From: a virus
IMG/VR virus record: IMGVR_UViG_3300042731_005409
Span: 1-35,276 of that record
Length of the DNA stretch: 35,276 nucleotides
Reading direction: 5' to 3' (one strand)
Shown: piece by piece, positions 4,687 through 35,276 of the stretch
Layout of the letters: each line of letters starts with the position of its first letter
How positions within the stretch are numbered: the first letter of the stretch is position 1
Notes under the pieces: model-generated
Seen by the model: only the letters and a program-made list of their open reading frames with translations
Told to the model about the DNA's origin: nothing
The model's database searches: none
Translations under genes and position numbers: made by a program

Positions 4687-5412
4687 ATGACAGGTGCACA
4701 ATTTTTAAATGTTCTATGTTCTTCCTCAAGTATTCTTGGTTTAAGCGATAAATCATCTAGTGATACTGTATGGAGGGCCACTGTTTTGGAATGGCTAAAA
4801 CTAGTTTTCAAGGATATACAAACCAGACAAGTATCTTTTCATTGGAAATTTCTTGAAGTTACAGCTACAGCATCAACAGTTGCAAATCAGTTTTATTATA
4901 CGTTACCTACAGATATAGATAGGAAAAAAATTGTGCATGTATATGATCAAACAGATGAAATTACTTACATATTTGTGCCATATGAAAGGTTTAGAAAACT
5001 TGTAGCAAAAGAAACGGCACATACAAGTAGCAGTATAGTAAATTGGACTCTATGGTCTAATCAGATAGGGTTATATCCAGTTCCAGATAGTGCAAAAACA
5101 TTCTATTTGGATTATGTACAAACTTTTACAGATATTGCAGATGATGCTAATAGTATAGAACTTCCTACTGCATATGACAATATTATAATAGATGGTGTTA
5201 TGGAATATGTATATAGATTTGATCCAACATTAGGAAATGCACTTAATCAAAGACAAATATATGAATCTGGCATCGAACGCATGATAAAAGAAAATGGCCA
5301 GAACATATCAGAGATAAACGTGCCAATGTCGCATAGAGCAAAATATAGACGTAGAAACGAACTAGATGGGAGGAATTCAGTGTTATTTCCACTGGATAAT
5401 ACTAACGTATGA
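4687..5412 (+). CDS. Head-tail connector (adaptor) protein
   Basis: A 241-aa protein with AAAGGAAAAT before the ATG. Central features such as FYYTLPTDIDRKKIVHVYD, IGLYPVPDSAKTFYLDYVQ and ELPTAYDNIIIDGVMEY are characteristic of podovirus adaptors (T7 gp11 / P22 gp4-like role), where an LYP-P-D segment precedes a paired helix region that binds the portal ring. Its position after the head genes and before the tail genes agrees. The last codons overlap the next gene by 4 nt. Confidence 0.72.
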   Translation: MTGAQFLNVLCSSSSILGLSDKSSSDTVWRATVLEWLKLVFKDIQTRQVSFHWKFLEVTATASTVANQFYYTLPTDIDRKKIVHVYDQTDEITYIFVPYERFRKLVAKETAHTSSSIVNWTLWSNQIGLYPVPDSAKTFYLDYVQTFTDIADDANSIELPTAYDNIIIDGVMEYVYRFDPTLGNALNQRQIYESGIERMIKENGQNISEINVPMSHRAKYRRRNELDGRNSVLFPLDNTNV

Positions 5413-6614
5413 GATATTTATTACTTTTGTACATTTTAAGTGTACCTTTATTTTTTATACCTGGGCAGCATTTCAGGCAAGTTCAGGAAATGTATTTTCA
5501 AGCTTCTTCAATAATATTAATATTAGGAGGAACTTTTTTTGAATCAAAACCTTTGAAACGAAATATGTTAAATATTAGTATTGGAGTTTTTATTGCATGG
5601 ATGCTTGTGATTTGGGCTATTCATTTGCAAGGATGGTCTATATTATTTAATGGGCTACTTGGATTTTTAGTTTATACAACCATAATACGTACAATAAAAA
5701 AAGATGATATTAAATTTATTGCAAAATCTTTATTGTTTTTTGCAATTTTTATTGTTATATACCGGTTATTCCAACATTTTGATTTTGATATGAGAGGGCA
5801 ATATATTTTGAATGATGGTGGGGTTCCTGAATGTGCTTTTTTTGGCATCAAATCATCTATGGGTATGTATATGGCAACAATAATACCTGTAATTTCAATT
5901 TATTCGATATTTGGGTTTTTATTTTTACCATTTGTAGCACTAAGCTATTCTAGTGGTGCTGTATTGGCTAGTATAGTATCTACAATGGTATATTTTTGGT
6001 ATAGATTGCGTAAGATGTTTTGGATAAGTTTGATACCTATAATTATAGGCGGTTTATTTTTTATTAAGTATATGGATAATCCTACAGGGATGCAAAAAAC
6101 TCGTATACCTATGTGGGGAATGGTATTTCAAGATTCAACTAAAAAATTTGCAGGATATGGTTTGGATAGTTTTAGAGACCCCAAAAATTCTTTAAGTACA
6201 AAATATTTTAAACATTGGAATAGTAATAAAACAGTAAGAGCATATAAAATTATTGAAGATAATAAATTTCTAGGCTGGAATATTGCTGAAGAACCACCTG
6301 AAGAGATAAAAAAACGTATAGCAACAGGCAAAAATCCATTGGATGAATGGGATCATCCTCATAACGAATTTCTGTGGGTATTTTATGAGCTTGGATATTT
6401 AGGTGTTGCATTGCTAGGAATAGTAGTATTTTTTGTTTGCCAAAGATTTAGGCAAAGCTATAAAGATAGAATGACTGTTGCATTGTTTTCTTCACTGGTA
6501 TGTTACTTTATTTTTTCTACAACTCAGTTTCCGTTGCATTTAGCAAGATTAGCATATTTATTACCAATAATAGGTGGCTTTTTTTATGTATCTACAGAGG
6601 AGGCGATACGATGA
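5409..6614 (+). CDS. O-antigen ligase/polymerase-like membrane protein (Wzy_C type)
   Basis: A 401-aa protein with about ten predicted membrane segments. A large loop around residues 227-325 carries the Wzy_C hallmarks: Arg232 in TRIPMWGM, the GYGLDSF segment, and HPHNEF (316-321), followed by ELGYLG and another membrane span. WaaL and Wzy enzymes with this domain join O-antigen or related polysaccharides at the periplasmic face of the inner membrane. The gene is embedded in the virion operon and coupled by ATGA overlaps to the connector before it and the exported microprotein after it. Surface modification of the infected cell (superinfection exclusion or receptor change) is the likely use, by inference. 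Confidence 0.8.
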   Translation: MRYLLLLYILSVPLFFIPGQHFRQVQEMYFQASSIILILGGTFFESKPLKRNMLNISIGVFIAWMLVIWAIHLQGWSILFNGLLGFLVYTTIIRTIKKDDIKFIAKSLLFFAIFIVIYRLFQHFDFDMRGQYILNDGGVPECAFFGIKSSMGMYMATIIPVISIYSIFGFLFLPFVALSYSSGAVLASIVSTMVYFWYRLRKMFWISLIPIIIGGLFFIKYMDNPTGMQKTRIPMWGMVFQDSTKKFAGYGLDSFRDPKNSLSTKYFKHWNSNKTVRAYKIIEDNKFLGWNIAEEPPEEIKKRIATGKNPLDEWDHPHNEFLWVFYELGYLGVALLGIVVFFVCQRFRQSYKDRMTVALFSSLVCYFIFSTTQFPLHLARLAYLLPIIGGFFYVSTEEAIR

Positions 6615-24698: not shown

Positions 24699-24764
24699 AT
24701 GGAGGAATGGGGCAAAAAGAATAAAGACAAAGAAATATATAAAAAAAGGAGGCGAAATGAATAG
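24699..24764 (+). CDS. Possible leader peptide of the RNA ligase gene
   Basis: A 21-aa ORF (MEEWGKKNKDKEIYKKRRRNE) after a strong TAAGGAGG; its end overlaps the ligase start by 8 nt, and it includes the ligase's own AAAGGAGG site. Very basic and too short to evaluate; may couple translation of the ligase. Confidence 0.32.
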   Translation: MEEWGKKNKDKEIYKKRRRNE

Positions 24765-25659
24765 TTGGAATTCCTATCCAAAAGTATGGAATATAGGTCA
24801 TCCAAATATTGCAGAAATATTTGAAGACGAAGTATTGATAGAAGAGAAAATTGATGGATCGCAATTTTCTTTTGGAGTTTTTAATGGAGATTTAAAATGT
24901 AAATCAAAGAGCGTTGAATTAGATATAAATGCTCCAGAAAAAATGTTCCTAAAAGCAGTTCAAACAGCAGTATCTTTAGCACCTTTATTGAAAGATGGAT
25001 GGACATATAGAGCTGAATATCTATCAAAACCTAAGCATAACACATTAGCTTACGAGAGAACGCCAGAAAAGAATTTAATTATTTTTGATATTAATATAGA
25101 TCTTGAAACTTATTTAAAATATGAATATAAAAAGCAAGAGGCAGAGAGATTGGGACTTGAGATAGTACCTACTTTTGGATCTATTAAGATAAATAATTCA
25201 GAGAATTTGCTTGAATTATTGGAAAAAACAAGTTGTTTAGGCGGCCAAAAAATAGAAGGAATAGTCTGTAAAAACTATAATCAATTTGGTAGAGATGGTA
25301 AAGTTTTATTATGTAAATATGTTTCAGAAAAATTCAGAGAAAAACATAAATTAGACTGGAAAGAGCGTAATAAAACGAATAACGATATTATAGATCTATT
25401 GGGCCAATCTTTTAGAACAGAAGCTAGATGGGAAAAAGCTATAATTCATCTACTAGAAAAAGGAGAAATCGGGAATTCGCCAGATCCTAAATATATCGGG
25501 AAAATAATAAAGGAAATCCAACAGGATATAGAAGAAGAATGCTTTGATATTATTGCTAAAAAATTAGCATCCGCAGCCCTTCCAAGAATTAAAAAAATTG
25601 TATCTCGAGGATTTCCCGAATGGTATAAAGAAAAAATGTTGAAAAGTCAATTTAATTAA
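24757..25659 (+). CDS. RNA ligase (Rnl2-like)
   Basis: A 300-aa protein. Motif I EEKIDGSQF gives the AMP-accepting Lys31; TYRAEYLSKPKHNT (83-96), IEGIVCKNY (166-174) with Glu167, and LLCKYV (184-189) with Lys187 match nucleotidyltransferase motifs III/IIIa, IV and V. The C-terminal ~100 residues form a helical domain. Such ATP-dependent ligases seal nicks in RNA, for example repairing tRNAs cut by host defences. No polynucleotide kinase is visible nearby. The ATG has AAAGGAGGCG before it. Confidence 0.85.
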   Translation: MNSWNSYPKVWNIGHPNIAEIFEDEVLIEEKIDGSQFSFGVFNGDLKCKSKSVELDINAPEKMFLKAVQTAVSLAPLLKDGWTYRAEYLSKPKHNTLAYERTPEKNLIIFDINIDLETYLKYEYKKQEAERLGLEIVPTFGSIKINNSENLLELLEKTSCLGGQKIEGIVCKNYNQFGRDGKVLLCKYVSEKFREKHKLDWKERNKTNNDIIDLLGQSFRTEARWEKAIIHLLEKGEIGNSPDPKYIGKIIKEIQQDIEEECFDIIAKKLASAALPRIKKIVSRGFPEWYKEKMLKSQFN

Positions 25660-30119: not shown

Positions 30120-30407
30120 ATGATCGATATTCAAAGACTTATAGAAGATGCTGGGAAGACCCTACAAGAAGAAAAAGAAAGAATATTACAAAACTATATC
30201 AAAGAAGTTATCGAAAAAAGAGATAAAGCTCATCAAGAGTTTTTAGACTATTCCTATTTATTGCAAGAGCTCGCTAAAGACGGAAATATAATAAAATTTG
30301 TAGCTGAAACGCAAAACAGAAAGAAACTAGACGATATAGGCCAGGTAGCGATTTGGGCAACAGAGAGGAAGATACTAGAAACAAATGAGAGGAGTAAGCA
30401 TGTATGA
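30120..30407 (+). CDS. Coiled-coil protein
   Basis: A 95-aa, strongly helical, charged protein (EEKERILQNYIKEVIEKRDK) after GGGGGAGAA. Probable dimeric coiled coil; unknown role. Overlaps the next gene by 8 nt. Confidence 0.55.
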   Translation: MIDIQRLIEDAGKTLQEEKERILQNYIKEVIEKRDKAHQEFLDYSYLLQELAKDGNIIKFVAETQNRKKLDDIGQVAIWATERKILETNERSKHV

Positions 30408-30750
30408 AACATGTATAAAATGTGGGAGTCGATATACATTTTCTGAGACAACGTTTCCAGTTAAGAGTTTTGATTTGAAAGGCAATCTAAGAGGTCATTA
30501 TTGTTTTGTGTGTGTAAATAAACCTTGGAGATATCGAAGCCGATACAACAAATTATTAATAAAAGGTACAAATGTATTGGATTGGGAACAAGTTACAGAG
30601 TATTGTGCGGAGTGCGGTAAAAATTTTGTAAAAAACTCCCCTACACATAAAACATGTTCAGGATGCAAAATAAAAAGAAAAAAAAGGCTAGACAAAAAAG
30701 CAAAAGAAAAGAGGAAAAATGAAAGAAAAATACGAAATATGCACAAATGA
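30400..30750 (+). CDS. Double zinc-ribbon protein
   Basis: A 116-aa protein with CIKCG...CFVC in the first half and CAECGKNF...CSGCK in the second, followed by a very basic tail (KRKKRLDKKAKEKRKNERKI). Likely nucleic-acid-binding. The start at 30400 follows GAGAGGAG; an in-frame Met at 30385 lies inside that site. Confidence 0.68.
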   Translation: MYETCIKCGSRYTFSETTFPVKSFDLKGNLRGHYCFVCVNKPWRYRSRYNKLLIKGTNVLDWEQVTEYCAECGKNFVKNSPTHKTCSGCKIKRKKRLDKKAKEKRKNERKIRNMHK

Positions 30751-31428: not shown

Positions 31429-31884
31429 GAATGTACACATAAATCTACCAAAATAGCAATATTATTATTTATAATCATATCAATAACTACACATTCTGTA
31501 CATGGTGATGCCAAAAAGATCTTAAAAGAAGGCTTAATAGGAGCTGGAAGTGGTGCAATAGCATCTTCAGCATCAGGTGGCGATGCAACCAAAGGAGCAT
31601 TAATAGGAGCCGGAGCAAATATAGCAGGCAACGCCATATTCGATGCAATAACCTCACCAAACCCAAAACCCAAAAACGAAGTAAGAACCGTATACATAGA
31701 AAACGATAGAGAATACAAACGCAGACCAATGCATATTTCCAGAAAATGGAAAAAGAAACTAAAAAGAGCAAAAGAACTAGCATTTAATCAAGGCTATAAA
31801 CTAGGACATGAAGAAGGATACATTGAAGGCTATATAAATGCATACAAAGAGATGCAAAAGTTCTGTAATGAAAAAACAGAGTGA
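31426..31884 (+). CDS. Exported glycine-zipper protein, first late gene
   Basis: A 152-aa protein. A signal peptide (about residues 8-26, V-H-G, then DAKK) precedes a glycine-zipper segment (GLIGAGSGAIASSASGG, then GALIGAGANIAG), typical of small envelope proteins that insert in or span membranes, and a basic coiled C-terminal region (SRKWKKKLKRAKELAFNQGY). The ATG coincides with the expected transcription start, so the mRNA may be leaderless. Being first in the late operon, it could alter the envelope (exclusion or lysis); this is inference. Confidence 0.62.
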   Translation: MECTHKSTKIAILLFIIISITTHSVHGDAKKILKEGLIGAGSGAIASSASGGDATKGALIGAGANIAGNAIFDAITSPNPKPKNEVRTVYIENDREYKRRPMHISRKWKKKLKRAKELAFNQGYKLGHEEGYIEGYINAYKEMQKFCNEKTE

Positions 31885-31935
31885 TTTTTTTAGTAGGCAT
31901 AACTATAAATATAAAAAAAGGATAGAAAACATAAA

Positions 31936-32247
31936 ATGGCAGGCAAAAAAGGCAAATCGGGAAGATTCACGAAGAGACATGAAATCCAGATAGATGATCT
32001 GTGCAGACTTGCAGTAAGCACAGTAAAAAATTATCTTGAAAAAAAAGATGCACCTTTAGAGAAAAGAGCCAAGATATCTATAGAAGTGGTAAAGAAGTAT
32101 ATGCCAACAAAACTAATAGGAGAAGGTTTTGACAATACAGCAGTTGTCTACAATGTCATCCAAGATATCCAAAGAGATCTTGATAAGGATCGTCTCTCAT
32201 CCATGGTTTTGGATAGAAGAGATGGTATGGACACAGGACGAGCATGA
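31936..32247 (+). CDS. Terminase small subunit
   Basis: A 103-aa basic protein (MAGKKGKSGRFTKRHEIQID) with a helical N-terminal DNA-binding segment, helical middle and acidic-to-basic C-terminal end, directly before the large-subunit ATPase and overlapping it. Small terminases recognise the packaging site and are this size in podoviruses. Sequence similarity is weak, so context carries the call. Confidence 0.72.
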   Translation: MAGKKGKSGRFTKRHEIQIDDLCRLAVSTVKNYLEKKDAPLEKRAKISIEVVKKYMPTKLIGEGFDNTAVVYNVIQDIQRDLDKDRLSSMVLDRRDGMDTGRA

Positions 32248-32764
32248 TTTAGAGAATCCAGTAAAGAAATTTCCGGACAAACAGTATTTAAGGGTATTAT
32301 GTGATCTTTGGTATAGGGAACAATTGTTATTAATTCCCAAGTCAAGACAATTGCTTATGACATGGTTATTTTCTGCGTGTTATTTATGGGATACACAGTT
32401 TCATAAGGGGAGACTGAATTTTTTCCAGAGCAAGAAAGAAGAAGATGCAGATAGGGTGGTGCAGAGAGCATATTTTGTATATGAGCATCAACCAGAATGG
32501 ATAAAACAGTTATTCCCAGCAGAATATACCTTTTGTCATTTAAAATTCCCTAAAGGGAAAAGTGAAATATGGGGAGTACCACAAGGGGAAGCGCAAGTAA
32601 GATCACATACAGCAAGTGGTATATTCTCTGATGAAATGGCGTTTCAACCTGAATCAGAGAGAGCATATACAGCATCAAGACCGACAATATTTGGAGGTGG
32701 TAGGTTTACAGGTGTAAGCACAGCCAATCCAGGTTTTTTTCATTTTTTAGTGGAGAATAGATAA
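32153..32764 (+). CDS. Terminase large subunit, ATPase half
   Basis: A 203-aa protein with the packaging ATPase motifs: HPWFWIEEM-TQDEHD near the N-terminus, Walker A-like PKSRQLLMTW (62-71), Walker B GIFSDE (156-161) and coupling motif GVSTANPG (187-194). It stops after FHFLVENR, where normal terminases continue into the nuclease domain. The TAATG stop overlaps the zinc-ribbon gene. The start is uncertain: ATG 32153 keeps the conserved HPWFW segment; TTG 32129 has AGGAGAAGG only two bases away. Overlaps the small subunit by 95 nt. Confidence 0.85.
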   Translation: MSSKISKEILIRIVSHPWFWIEEMVWTQDEHDLENPVKKFPDKQYLRVLCDLWYREQLLLIPKSRQLLMTWLFSACYLWDTQFHKGRLNFFQSKKEEDADRVVQRAYFVYEHQPEWIKQLFPAEYTFCHLKFPKGKSEIWGVPQGEAQVRSHTASGIFSDEMAFQPESERAYTASRPTIFGGGRFTGVSTANPGFFHFLVENR

Positions 32765-32931
32765 TGGAAGCAAAATATAAATGTAATAATTGTGGTAAAG
32801 AAAAAACCACAAAATCTATAAGTGGGACTAATCCACATTTTAAGAGACCTAAATGTGATAATGCAGATTGTATTAAAAAAAATAAGATGAATATGGTTAT
32901 GGTAACATATGGAGCAAATATAGGTGAATGA
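32764..32931 (+). CDS. Zinc-ribbon protein between the two terminase halves
   Basis: A 55-aa protein with CNNCGK at 7-12 and CDNADC (about 31-36), so C-x2-C and C-x4-C, separated by 20 residues. TGGAGAA precedes its ATG, which overlaps the ATPase stop; its own stop overlaps the nuclease start (ATGA). It is not like a homing endonuclease and is too short for an intein or group I intron. Confidence 0.72.
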   Translation: MEAKYKCNNCGKEKTTKSISGTNPHFKRPKCDNADCIKKNKMNMVMVTYGANIGE

Positions 32932-33824
32932 AGGGTTTAGATATATACGAGACTAAAGATGGATTTACTGTAGCCAAGCTACATTACACAGCAGATCCAG
33001 ATAAAGACCCTGAGAGAGAGGGCGCAGAATGGATAAAAAAAGCAATGAAAGGTTTTCCTGGAGGAAAAACCGGAGCAGCTTGGCGGAAAGAAATGGAAAT
33101 AGATTTTACGGCTTATTCTGGTCAACTGTTATGCTACGACATTTTAACTAACTACAGAGCAAAGATAGTCAAAGATTATGAGATTAAAGAGAATTATAAG
33201 AAGTTTGGCTCTTTGGATTGGGGACGGAATAACCCAGCAAGTTTCCACGAATATATAGTAGGGGAAAATGGACATATACATAGCAATCACGAGGTGTATG
33301 TTAGAGATACTTCGATAGCAGATTTTTGCGCTATGATAAAAGAAGCTCCATACTATAAAGATTATTTATGGATTACAGCAGATCCAAGTATATGGAACAG
33401 GAATCAAGAAACAAAAGATGGGCTGAGAAGCCTAGAAACGTTATTCGCTCAAAATGGCCTTGTATTGAGAAAAGGCATTAGTAGGCATGATGATCTAGCA
33501 ATAGAAGAACTTCTTTCAAGGTGGGGCAATTTAGAGGCAAATAACGCAAGGTTTACAATAAGTCCTAGATGTTACAAACAAATATGGGAATTTGAGCGGT
33601 TAAGATACAGAGATTTAACCACAGCAATGATAGAGCAGAAAAACCCATATGAACAGTTGGTAGATAAAGATAACCATGCATGGGATGATTTTAAATATTT
33701 TATCAGCACATGGTTAAGTGAGCCGGAACAATTGATAGAGCATGCTATTCCAAAAGGATCAGTAGCATACGAGATGTTTATGGACGAAAAGACCGCAAAA
33801 GACTGGAAACGCAAATATAAATGA
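32928..33824 (+). CDS. Terminase large subunit, nuclease half
   Basis: A 298-aa protein. The first part (DIYETKDGFTVAKLHYTADP, then GAAWRKEMEIDFTAYSG) is the linker seen after the ATPase domain in one-piece terminases. The RNase H-like nuclease residues are Asp97 (GSLDWGRNNP), Asp152 (ITADPSIW) and Asp253/254 (HAWDDFKY). It starts with its own AGGTGA site. No ATPase motifs, so packaging requires both halves. Confidence 0.87.
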   Translation: MKGLDIYETKDGFTVAKLHYTADPDKDPEREGAEWIKKAMKGFPGGKTGAAWRKEMEIDFTAYSGQLLCYDILTNYRAKIVKDYEIKENYKKFGSLDWGRNNPASFHEYIVGENGHIHSNHEVYVRDTSIADFCAMIKEAPYYKDYLWITADPSIWNRNQETKDGLRSLETLFAQNGLVLRKGISRHDDLAIEELLSRWGNLEANNARFTISPRCYKQIWEFERLRYRDLTTAMIEQKNPYEQLVDKDNHAWDDFKYFISTWLSEPEQLIEHAIPKGSVAYEMFMDEKTAKDWKRKYK

Positions 33825-33834
33825 TGGGGGTAAA

Positions 33835-35276
33835 ATGGCGTTAAAAGAAAAAGATTTCGAGTATTATAAAAAAGAAATCGATGACGATATTAAGTTCCAT
33901 AGAACCAAGATGAGTGAGGTTAATAGACCTAGTGAAGTAAAAGCAGCTTATAAAGGGAAATTTGAAACAGATGGGTTGCCGAATACAGATTCAGACTACA
34001 TGACAGAAAACCATTTATTTATATCAGCAAATACAGTATTACCTTCTTTATTTTTTCAGTTACCAAGACTTAATGTAAGACCCAAATTTAGAGATGACTT
34101 GAGATTTGCGGCTAATATAATTAATGGCCTTGGAAATGTTTATTTAAACGAAGATGTCAAGAAAGAAAACCAGTTAGCAATAATAGATACCTTTTTACCA
34201 TATGGTTATGGTGCAATAAAAAGTGGATATAATTCAAGGGTTGGAACAATCAAACAACCCAAAACGTCAAAATTTAAAGAACTTTTTACAGGTAAAGTTG
34301 AGGGAGAGAATAGCCAAAATGACAATGCTATGGAATCAGAAGTAGAATATATAAAATATGAAAGACCAGTATTATTAAGACATTCACCCAAACATACATA
34401 TTTGGATCGTAGACAAGATTTCAATAAGGGTACTAGGATGACATTAGAATATCAGAGAAGTGTACAGAACCTTATTGATTCTAATTTATATAAGTTAGAT
34501 AAAACCTTTATTGATCATTTCAAGAGTAGATCAGGCACAAATGATTTACGATGTGCATATGTTACTTTATATGAATCTTGGATGAAGATGGATAAGAAAA
34601 TATTTAAGCTGGTTTATGTTGAAGATTGGCCAGAAGAGTTGGCTTTTATTGAGACTGATTATGACGAAATACCAGTAAGTTTATTAAGATTTAATAAGAT
34701 GGGGGATGTTCTGTATAATGTAGCACATGGTACTCTAGGTTTGGAAGCACAGAAAGAACTTAACTTTCTTAACGAGCTTTGGAAAAAACATGTAGAAAAT
34801 ATACGTAATCAATTTATTATTGATGATAGTGGGTTGACAAACGAAGGGAAAATAACTTTAAATGATAACCCTATAGGGGGGATTATAAAGGCAACTAGAC
34901 CAGGATTGACAGCCATTCCTTTAATGTCCCAGGGTGTTGATCCTGCGCTTTTCAGCAATATTGAGAATTTAAGACAATACTTAAGTTTGTTAATGTCAAC
35001 AAGTGGTGGCAAAGGTGGAGGAGAAAGTGAACTAGCTACAGTTGAGAAGAATAAAGCTTTAGGAGACGCTCTAAGAAGCAGTGGGATGCAAGATGATATA
35101 AGAGATTTCTATATAGATCAAGCTAAAAAAATGGTAAAGAATATCTTGAAATTTGGTGATCCAGAATTAACAGTTACTATTACTGGGGACAATGTAATTA
35201 ATCCTTTAACCGGTGAAACTTTAAATCAAGGAGATGCAGTTAAAATAGGTGGTGAGACGGGTATTCCATTAAGGCA
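33835..35276 (+). CDS. Portal protein, N-terminal and central part (continues at window start)
   Basis: Open frame from ATG 33835 (GGGGGTAAA before it) to the right edge, continuing in phase at 1-454. FISANTVLPSLFFQLPRLNVRP in the wing region, LVYVEDWPEELAFIETDYD, ALLRF-type strand, LNFLNELWKKHVENIRNQFI in the stem helix and KATRPGLTAIPLM are typical of podoviral portals. The gene follows the terminase and precedes the scaffold. The portal dodecamer is the packaging and ejection channel. Confidence 0.9.
   Translation, partial: MALKEKDFEYYKKEIDDDIKFHRTKMSEVNRPSEVKAAYKGKFETDGLPNTDSDYMTENHLFISANTVLPSLFFQLPRLNVRPKFRDDLRFAANIINGLGNVYLNEDVKKENQLAIIDTFLPYGYGAIKSGYNSRVGTIKQPKTSKFKELFTGKVEGENSQNDNAMESEVEYIKYERPVLLRHSPKHTYLDRRQDFNKGTRMTLEYQRSVQNLIDSNLYKLDKTFIDHFKSRSGTNDLRCAYVTLYESWMKMDKKIFKLVYVEDWPEELAFIETDYDEIPVSLLRFNKMGDVLYNVAHGTLGLEAQKELNFLNELWKKHVENIRNQFIIDDSGLTNEGKITLNDNPIGGIIKATRPGLTAIPLMSQGVDPALFSNIENLRQYLSLLMSTSGGKGGGESELATVEKNKALGDALRSSGMQDDIRDFYIDQAKKMVKNILKFGDPELTVTITGDNVINPLTGETLNQGDAVKIGGETGIPLR
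35208..35276. repeat. Direct terminal repeat, right copy
   Basis: Identical to bases 1-69. Removing one copy leaves a 35,207-bp circle. Confidence 0.95.

Follow-up and report, generated by a model that had tools for sequence, protein, structure and literature searches.

Large terminases (TerL) are treated as one chain, and single-chain TerL is the rule. The window studied here, a 35,276-bp virus record (IMGVR_UViG_3300042731_005409) analysed at its full length, raises the question of what such an enzyme can look like when its ATPase motifs and its nuclease residues are encoded by separate genes, with a small four-cysteine ORF between them. A preliminary description of this DNA proposed three coupled genes, stable and not the product of a sequencing error, in which a zinc protein could bridge the two catalytic halves. 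Two matters have to be settled: whether the break is a real property of the phage, and whether the small ORF is part of the enzyme.

Organization of the packaging locus

The first and last 69 bp of the window are identical (1-69 = 35208-35276), and the record is probably a complete genome, circular or terminally redundant. The closed circle would probably measure 35,207 bp, with the portal gene spanning the join. The locus lies on the + strand in the order TerS-like, ATPase, 55-aa ORF, nuclease, portal, with the following features:

31936..32247, + strand: TerS-like small terminase gene, 103 aa; its C-terminal part matches the TerS-like ORFs of the relatives L001 and L002
32129/32153-32764, + strand: terminase ATPase core gene; PHROG terminase large subunit 6.5e-6, profile to T4 gp17 5.6e-15
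32339..32350, + strand: deviant Walker A KSRQ, with Lys before SRQ and no GKT; aligned to gp17 SRQLGKTT
32618..32644, + strand: Walker B region GIFSDEMAF; D160 and E161 invariant
32711..32734, + strand: motif III GVSTANPG; the ATPase gene ends 9 codons later
32764..32931, + strand: 55-aa four-cysteine ORF, C-x2-C and C-x4-C, between the ATPase and nuclease genes
32928..33824, + strand: terminase nuclease gene, 298 aa, also with a predicted ATPase lid subdomain; profile to D6E, P22 and SPP1 terminase nucleases
32928..33122, + strand: N-terminal ~65 aa of the nuclease protein, putative equivalent of gp17 ~302-360 (ATPase subdomain II), placed by the gap between two structural alignments
33123..33728, + strand: RNase-H-fold nuclease domain, residues 66-267; acids D97, D152 and cluster 246-254
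33835..35276, + strand: portal gene, ~608 aa in all, continuing across the circle; weak Head-tail_con and PHROG connector matches

This is the TerS - TerL - portal context, the TerS and portal assignments being weak. The TerS-like ORF of L002 is 168 aa long and has a helix-turn-helix look resembling TerS. The TerS-like gene of the window (31936-32247) and the ATPase gene share 119 bp, and a similar TerS-ATPase overlap is found in L001. The cysteine spacing of the 55-aa ORF and the TAATG and ATGA overlaps are exactly as first described, and the ATPase gene, the 55-aa ORF and the nuclease gene occupy three differing frames. No second terminase, nor any other ATPase or nuclease copy of this family, was found in the window genome; the two activities that a TerL carries on one polypeptide are here in separate genes.

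Other genes of the window include an O-antigen ligase-like (Wzy_C) gene in the structural region (5409-6614), beside an SU10-type adaptor gene, and an RNA ligase gene (24757-25659). Upstream of the terminase genes there is another Cys-rich ORF (30385-30750), of 121 aa, with several CxxC pairs.

The ATPase-core gene

The ATPase had been read as a 203-aa protein from ATG 32153. The end of that ORF, 32764, stands, but its start is probably TTG 32129, giving a product of 211 aa, because the good ribosome site AGGAGAAGG lies just upstream of this TTG whereas ATG 32153 has none. Ribosome sites had been assigned to all three genes; the assignment holds for TTG 32129 and for the 55-aa ORF (GGAG at good spacing), but the nuclease gene is preceded by no more than a weak AGG, and its translation probably depends on coupling.

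The AF2 model of the ATPase (pLDDT 93.8) aligns over residues 1-203 with T4 gp17 101-301 (197 residues, Z 23.4, VIA-align), and the gene encodes an ASCE ATPase fold with Walker B and motif III. The motif positions (PKSRQ 62-66, IFSDE 157-161, STANPG 189-194) agree with the preliminary description, which had placed the ATPase motifs in this gene and the nuclease residues in the 298-aa gene. Pfam Terminase_6N matched below the cut-off in the window. The classical P-loop GK[T/S] is absent: KSRQ is followed by x-x-[TS], and the Lys of the gp17 GKT is not conserved. K63, S64 and R65 of this Walker A are invariant in 25 aligned relatives. In its unusual form it presumably resembles lambda gpA, whose Walker A is also deviant.

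The nuclease gene and the site of the cut

The nuclease model (pLDDT 81) aligns from residue 66 with gp17 361-560 (Z 14.1, VIA-align), and it fits the nucleases of phages D6E (Z 20) and P22 (Z 19) better than that of gp17 in the same type of alignment. The protein has an RNase-H-fold nuclease with conserved acids, of which D97 and D152 are invariant. Because the ATPase alignment ends at gp17 301 and the nuclease alignment starts at 361, the first ~65 nuclease residues would correspond to gp17 302-360; VIA-align covered nuclease residues 64-267 only, and the position of this stretch is deduced from what the two alignments leave uncovered and not from a match of its own. In the gp17 structure, residues 302-360 form the lid, or subdomain II, of the ATPase. 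The N-terminal stretch bears the family signatures HY[ST]ADP and WRKEMEIDF, and its invariant residues H19, E55 and E57 belong to the best-conserved positions in the nuclease gene. In addition, the same lid stretch follows the ATPase after a short linker in two relatives with a fused gene, L070 and L085.

According to the models, the cut is at ~gp17 301/302, inside the ATPase domain and between its ATP-binding core and its lid; since it falls there, the nuclease gene would also carry the ATPase lid. The zinc protein had been said to lie exactly at the boundary of the two domains. This placement does not hold, as the nuclease domain begins at residue 66 (gp17 361), well within the second gene.

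Spread of the split among relatives

IMG/VR and genome contigs were searched with the ATPase or nuclease sequence for relatives, which were then screened for both halves. This gave 93 distinct ATPase sequences, including that of the window; with three cultured-phage outgroups (L043, L044, and L045) set aside, 90 were retained. A separate nuclease gene with the same cut lies downstream of the ATPase in 68 of the 90, and ATPase and nuclease are fused in three (L048, L070, and L085). The remaining 19, mainly marine, have no nuclease downstream of the ATPase. For 12 contigs of the marine-type group the whole record was searched, and the nuclease was present in 10; the other two end close upstream of the ATPase. 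In the three marine-type records examined in full (L121, 1664-4591; L089; L105), the order is nuclease - unknown gene - TerS - ATPase. Among the 68 split relatives the distance from ATPase to nuclease varies between -40 bp and >2 kb, and each of the three relative frames is represented. Both halves were found wherever the contig allows, each with its conserved catalytic residues. Every relative with the split comes from a metagenome, and the cultured-phage collection yielded no clear split member; those homologous cultured TerLs that were inspected are single genes. A possible exception is Serratia phage BF, in which two adjacent genes are annotated as terminase.

These data bear on two explanations in which the phage would have an ordinary terminase after all. 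In a single metagenomic contig whose zinc insert is seen only here, one might suspect that a normal terL has decayed, or that the assembly or the sequencing is at fault. However, the same cut appears in dozens of contigs from many metagenomes, with varied frames and gaps, and the catalytic residues are conserved in both halves, which makes this explanation exceedingly improbable; for the split itself, the comparison of these sequences can be said to have refuted it already. The preliminary description had itself pointed to relatives with an intact single gene, and to an insert confined to this assembly, as signs that it was mistaken: no near relative has an intact single gene, but the insert is indeed seen only in the window.

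In the second explanation, a group I intron, inteins or a programmed frameshift would join the halves again. Such interruptions of terL are known: group I introns, which are self-splicing, occur in Bastillevirinae (PMC11878797) and an intein in Microcystis phage Mic1 (PMC7156551), and an apparent intein is present in one of our relatives, L012. The coding sequence is interrupted in these cases too, sometimes with homing-endonuclease genes, but it is rejoined by RNA or protein splicing, whereas the window family has separate products from genes that can be reordered. No intron family was found in 31500-34500, where the Rfam scan returned chance matches, none near gathering, and neither intein domains nor a group I/II intron were detected at the break in the window. 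Moreover, the ATPase stops at gp17 301, with no residues to spare for an intein half, and the gaps are of any frame. In the marine clade no single protein could arise by frameshifting, readthrough or splicing in cis, because in the members sampled the nuclease is encoded upstream of TerS and the ATPase. The varied gaps and frames together with the marine reordering rule out assembly error, readthrough, frameshifting and cis-splicing as explanations for the family as a whole, and rejoining of the halves has hardly any likelihood left.

Regarding inteins in this family, that of L012 (3-1895) appears to lie inside the nuclease, near the DKDNH motif. The nuclease frames of L061 and L062 are ~1 kb longer after the DKDNH-motif region, and an intein is possible there.

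The ATPase tree places the fused members, on long branches and with modest support, within the split ones. One old split with two or three re-fusions at later times would fit this topology, although the same site may have been split more than once. As far as sequence comparison can tell, the split is old and family-wide, and neither an error nor a recent break. Two proposals of the preliminary description are thereby borne out: the terminase is split into separate coupled genes, and the arrangement is stable, as it recurs in dozens of independent metagenomic phages and is even reordered in the marine clade.

The slot between the two halves

The status of the 55-aa ORF is different. Its codon score, 0.163, is within the range of real genes, yet not outside that of off-frame sequences, and by itself the coding evidence is modest. 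A homologue of the protein was found neither in viral contigs, nor in 50,697 cultured-phage records, nor in 18,671 frames of the relatives' loci and the window.

The proposal of a three-gene terminase in which this protein bridges ATPase and nuclease draws on its place right between the halves, on the overlaps and the ribosome site of the ORF, and on the recurrence of small zinc-type genes in the slot. The ~164 bp that encode it are, however, missing at this junction in the closest relatives, L001 and L046 (75-76% ATPase identity), in which the ATPase and nuclease genes overlap directly. In L046 (76%) the junction reads ...AACAGATGAAGGG..., and the ATPase stop overlaps the nuclease start. Two further relatives also lack the 55-aa gene and have unrelated inserts: a 30-aa membrane-like peptide in L021 and a 200-aa HNH gene (1555-2157) in L002. 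The zinc ribbon is thus not conserved with the split terminase, and a required zinc bridge is not supported, because the closest relatives lack the gene.

Elsewhere in the family the slot houses genes of many kinds, labelled by eye except for the HNH gene. Three related phages (L022, L059, and L076) have small protease-like proteins with HExxH-like motifs, and other contents are fibre-like (L035 and L037), epimerase-like (L060) or TerS-like (L084). Zinc-type proteins are found in L026/L027/L082/L087 (120-160 aa), L036-L041 (~120 aa), L058, L090 and L112; none is detectably similar to the 55-aa protein of the window. Small genes of the zinc type are more frequent in the slot (9/35) than elsewhere (30/525; p 3e-4), but the enrichment is weak after clustering by clade (three of eight ATPase clusters, P 0.03) and was rejected as proof of a role. 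With the halves reordered in the marine clade as well, a zinc-bridged three-gene enzyme appears very unlikely.

Alternatively, a homing endonuclease may once have entered the gene junction, and the 55-aa ORF would be what remains of it or of its zinc finger. Such enzymes often have Cys-rich fingers at the N-terminus, and the close relative L002 holds its HNH gene in the same slot. Against this, the 55-aa ORF resembles neither the L002 HNH protein nor HNH families, with no HNH match in Pfam or PHROGs and no HNH catalytic motif, and the DNA of the window and of L002 between the conserved flanks shares short, chance-level matches. We consider such an origin unlikely.

The last codons of the L002 HNH gene (EFFHYLVENKL) repeat the ATPase C-terminus, as if an invader had rebuilt the end of the gene. 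The possibility that the 55-aa ORF closes with a comparable leftover of the ATPase 3' end was rejected, the alignment being no better than shuffles.

From the contents of the slot in the different relatives, we conclude that the ATPase-nuclease junction is probably an insertion hotspot between two essential cistrons. The 55-aa gene is best read as cargo and not as a required bridge, possibly with a role specific to this phage.

A model for a bipartite terminase

The reading that we prefer, and hold to be very probably correct, is a bipartite TerL made of an ATP-binding core gene and a lid-nuclease gene whose products assemble in trans, the 55-aa ORF being a separate inserted gene. The product of the first gene would be the ATP-binding core only (equivalent to gp17 ~101-301), and that of the second would combine the RNase-H nuclease with the ATPase lid (subdomain II). 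These neighbouring, often overlapping cistrons would be translated together. The split, its site, its recurrence and reordering in the family and the lack of an intact copy are seen directly; from them we infer assembly in trans and function as a packaging motor. Because the cut lies inside the ATPase domain, the two products would have to rebuild one motor unit in trans. Most likely they come together at the portal without a covalent bond; each motor subunit would then be a heterodimer in which the lid acts in trans to the ATP site. TerS would load the halves on DNA, and the portal would act as usual. The zinc-type ORF appears to have been inserted cleanly between the cistrons, as the split terminase of relatives exists without it.

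A variant of this model is a hetero-oligomeric motor whose slot repeatedly recruits small metal-binding proteins as accessory motor subunits, namely the 55-aa protein and those of L026/L027/L082/L087 and L036-L041. We give this variant a rather low probability.

Comparison with known terminases

The bipartite enzyme shares with the single-chain T4 gp17 and Terminase_6-type proteins the ATPase and RNase-H folds, Walker B, motif III and the TerS and portal neighbours. It differs from gp17 in being encoded by two genes cut at ~301/302, in its deviant Walker A and in having the predicted lid on the nuclease protein. The fused relatives and the cultured TerLs (e.g., those of Pelagibacter phage Hodr, Pasteurella phage Pmp11 and Microbacterium phage Shocker) are homologous in sequence to one or both halves, but each is one continuous gene of ~450-650 aa, with no cut and no cargo. 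The phi29-type packaging ATPase, one chain with a vestigial, decayed nuclease domain (PMC7672431), is similar in that the ATPase has no working nuclease domain of its own. In the window, by contrast, the nuclease is conserved, on a separate protein, and carries the putative lid. No published terminase made of separate ATPase-core and lid-nuclease proteins was found in the full-text collection searched, which contains few subscription papers.

Implications

What is new here is a family-wide, two-gene variant of a known enzyme in a large group of uncultured phages. Where a search demands a complete terL, these phages may be given wrong scores, and a tree inferred from one half may overlook the other. 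The reason that large terminases are treated as one chain is that the lid is generally taken to transmit the stroke of the ATPase to the nuclease, or DNA-gripping, domain. A natural cut between the ATP site and the lid would provide a ready-made test of this coupling with separately purified parts.
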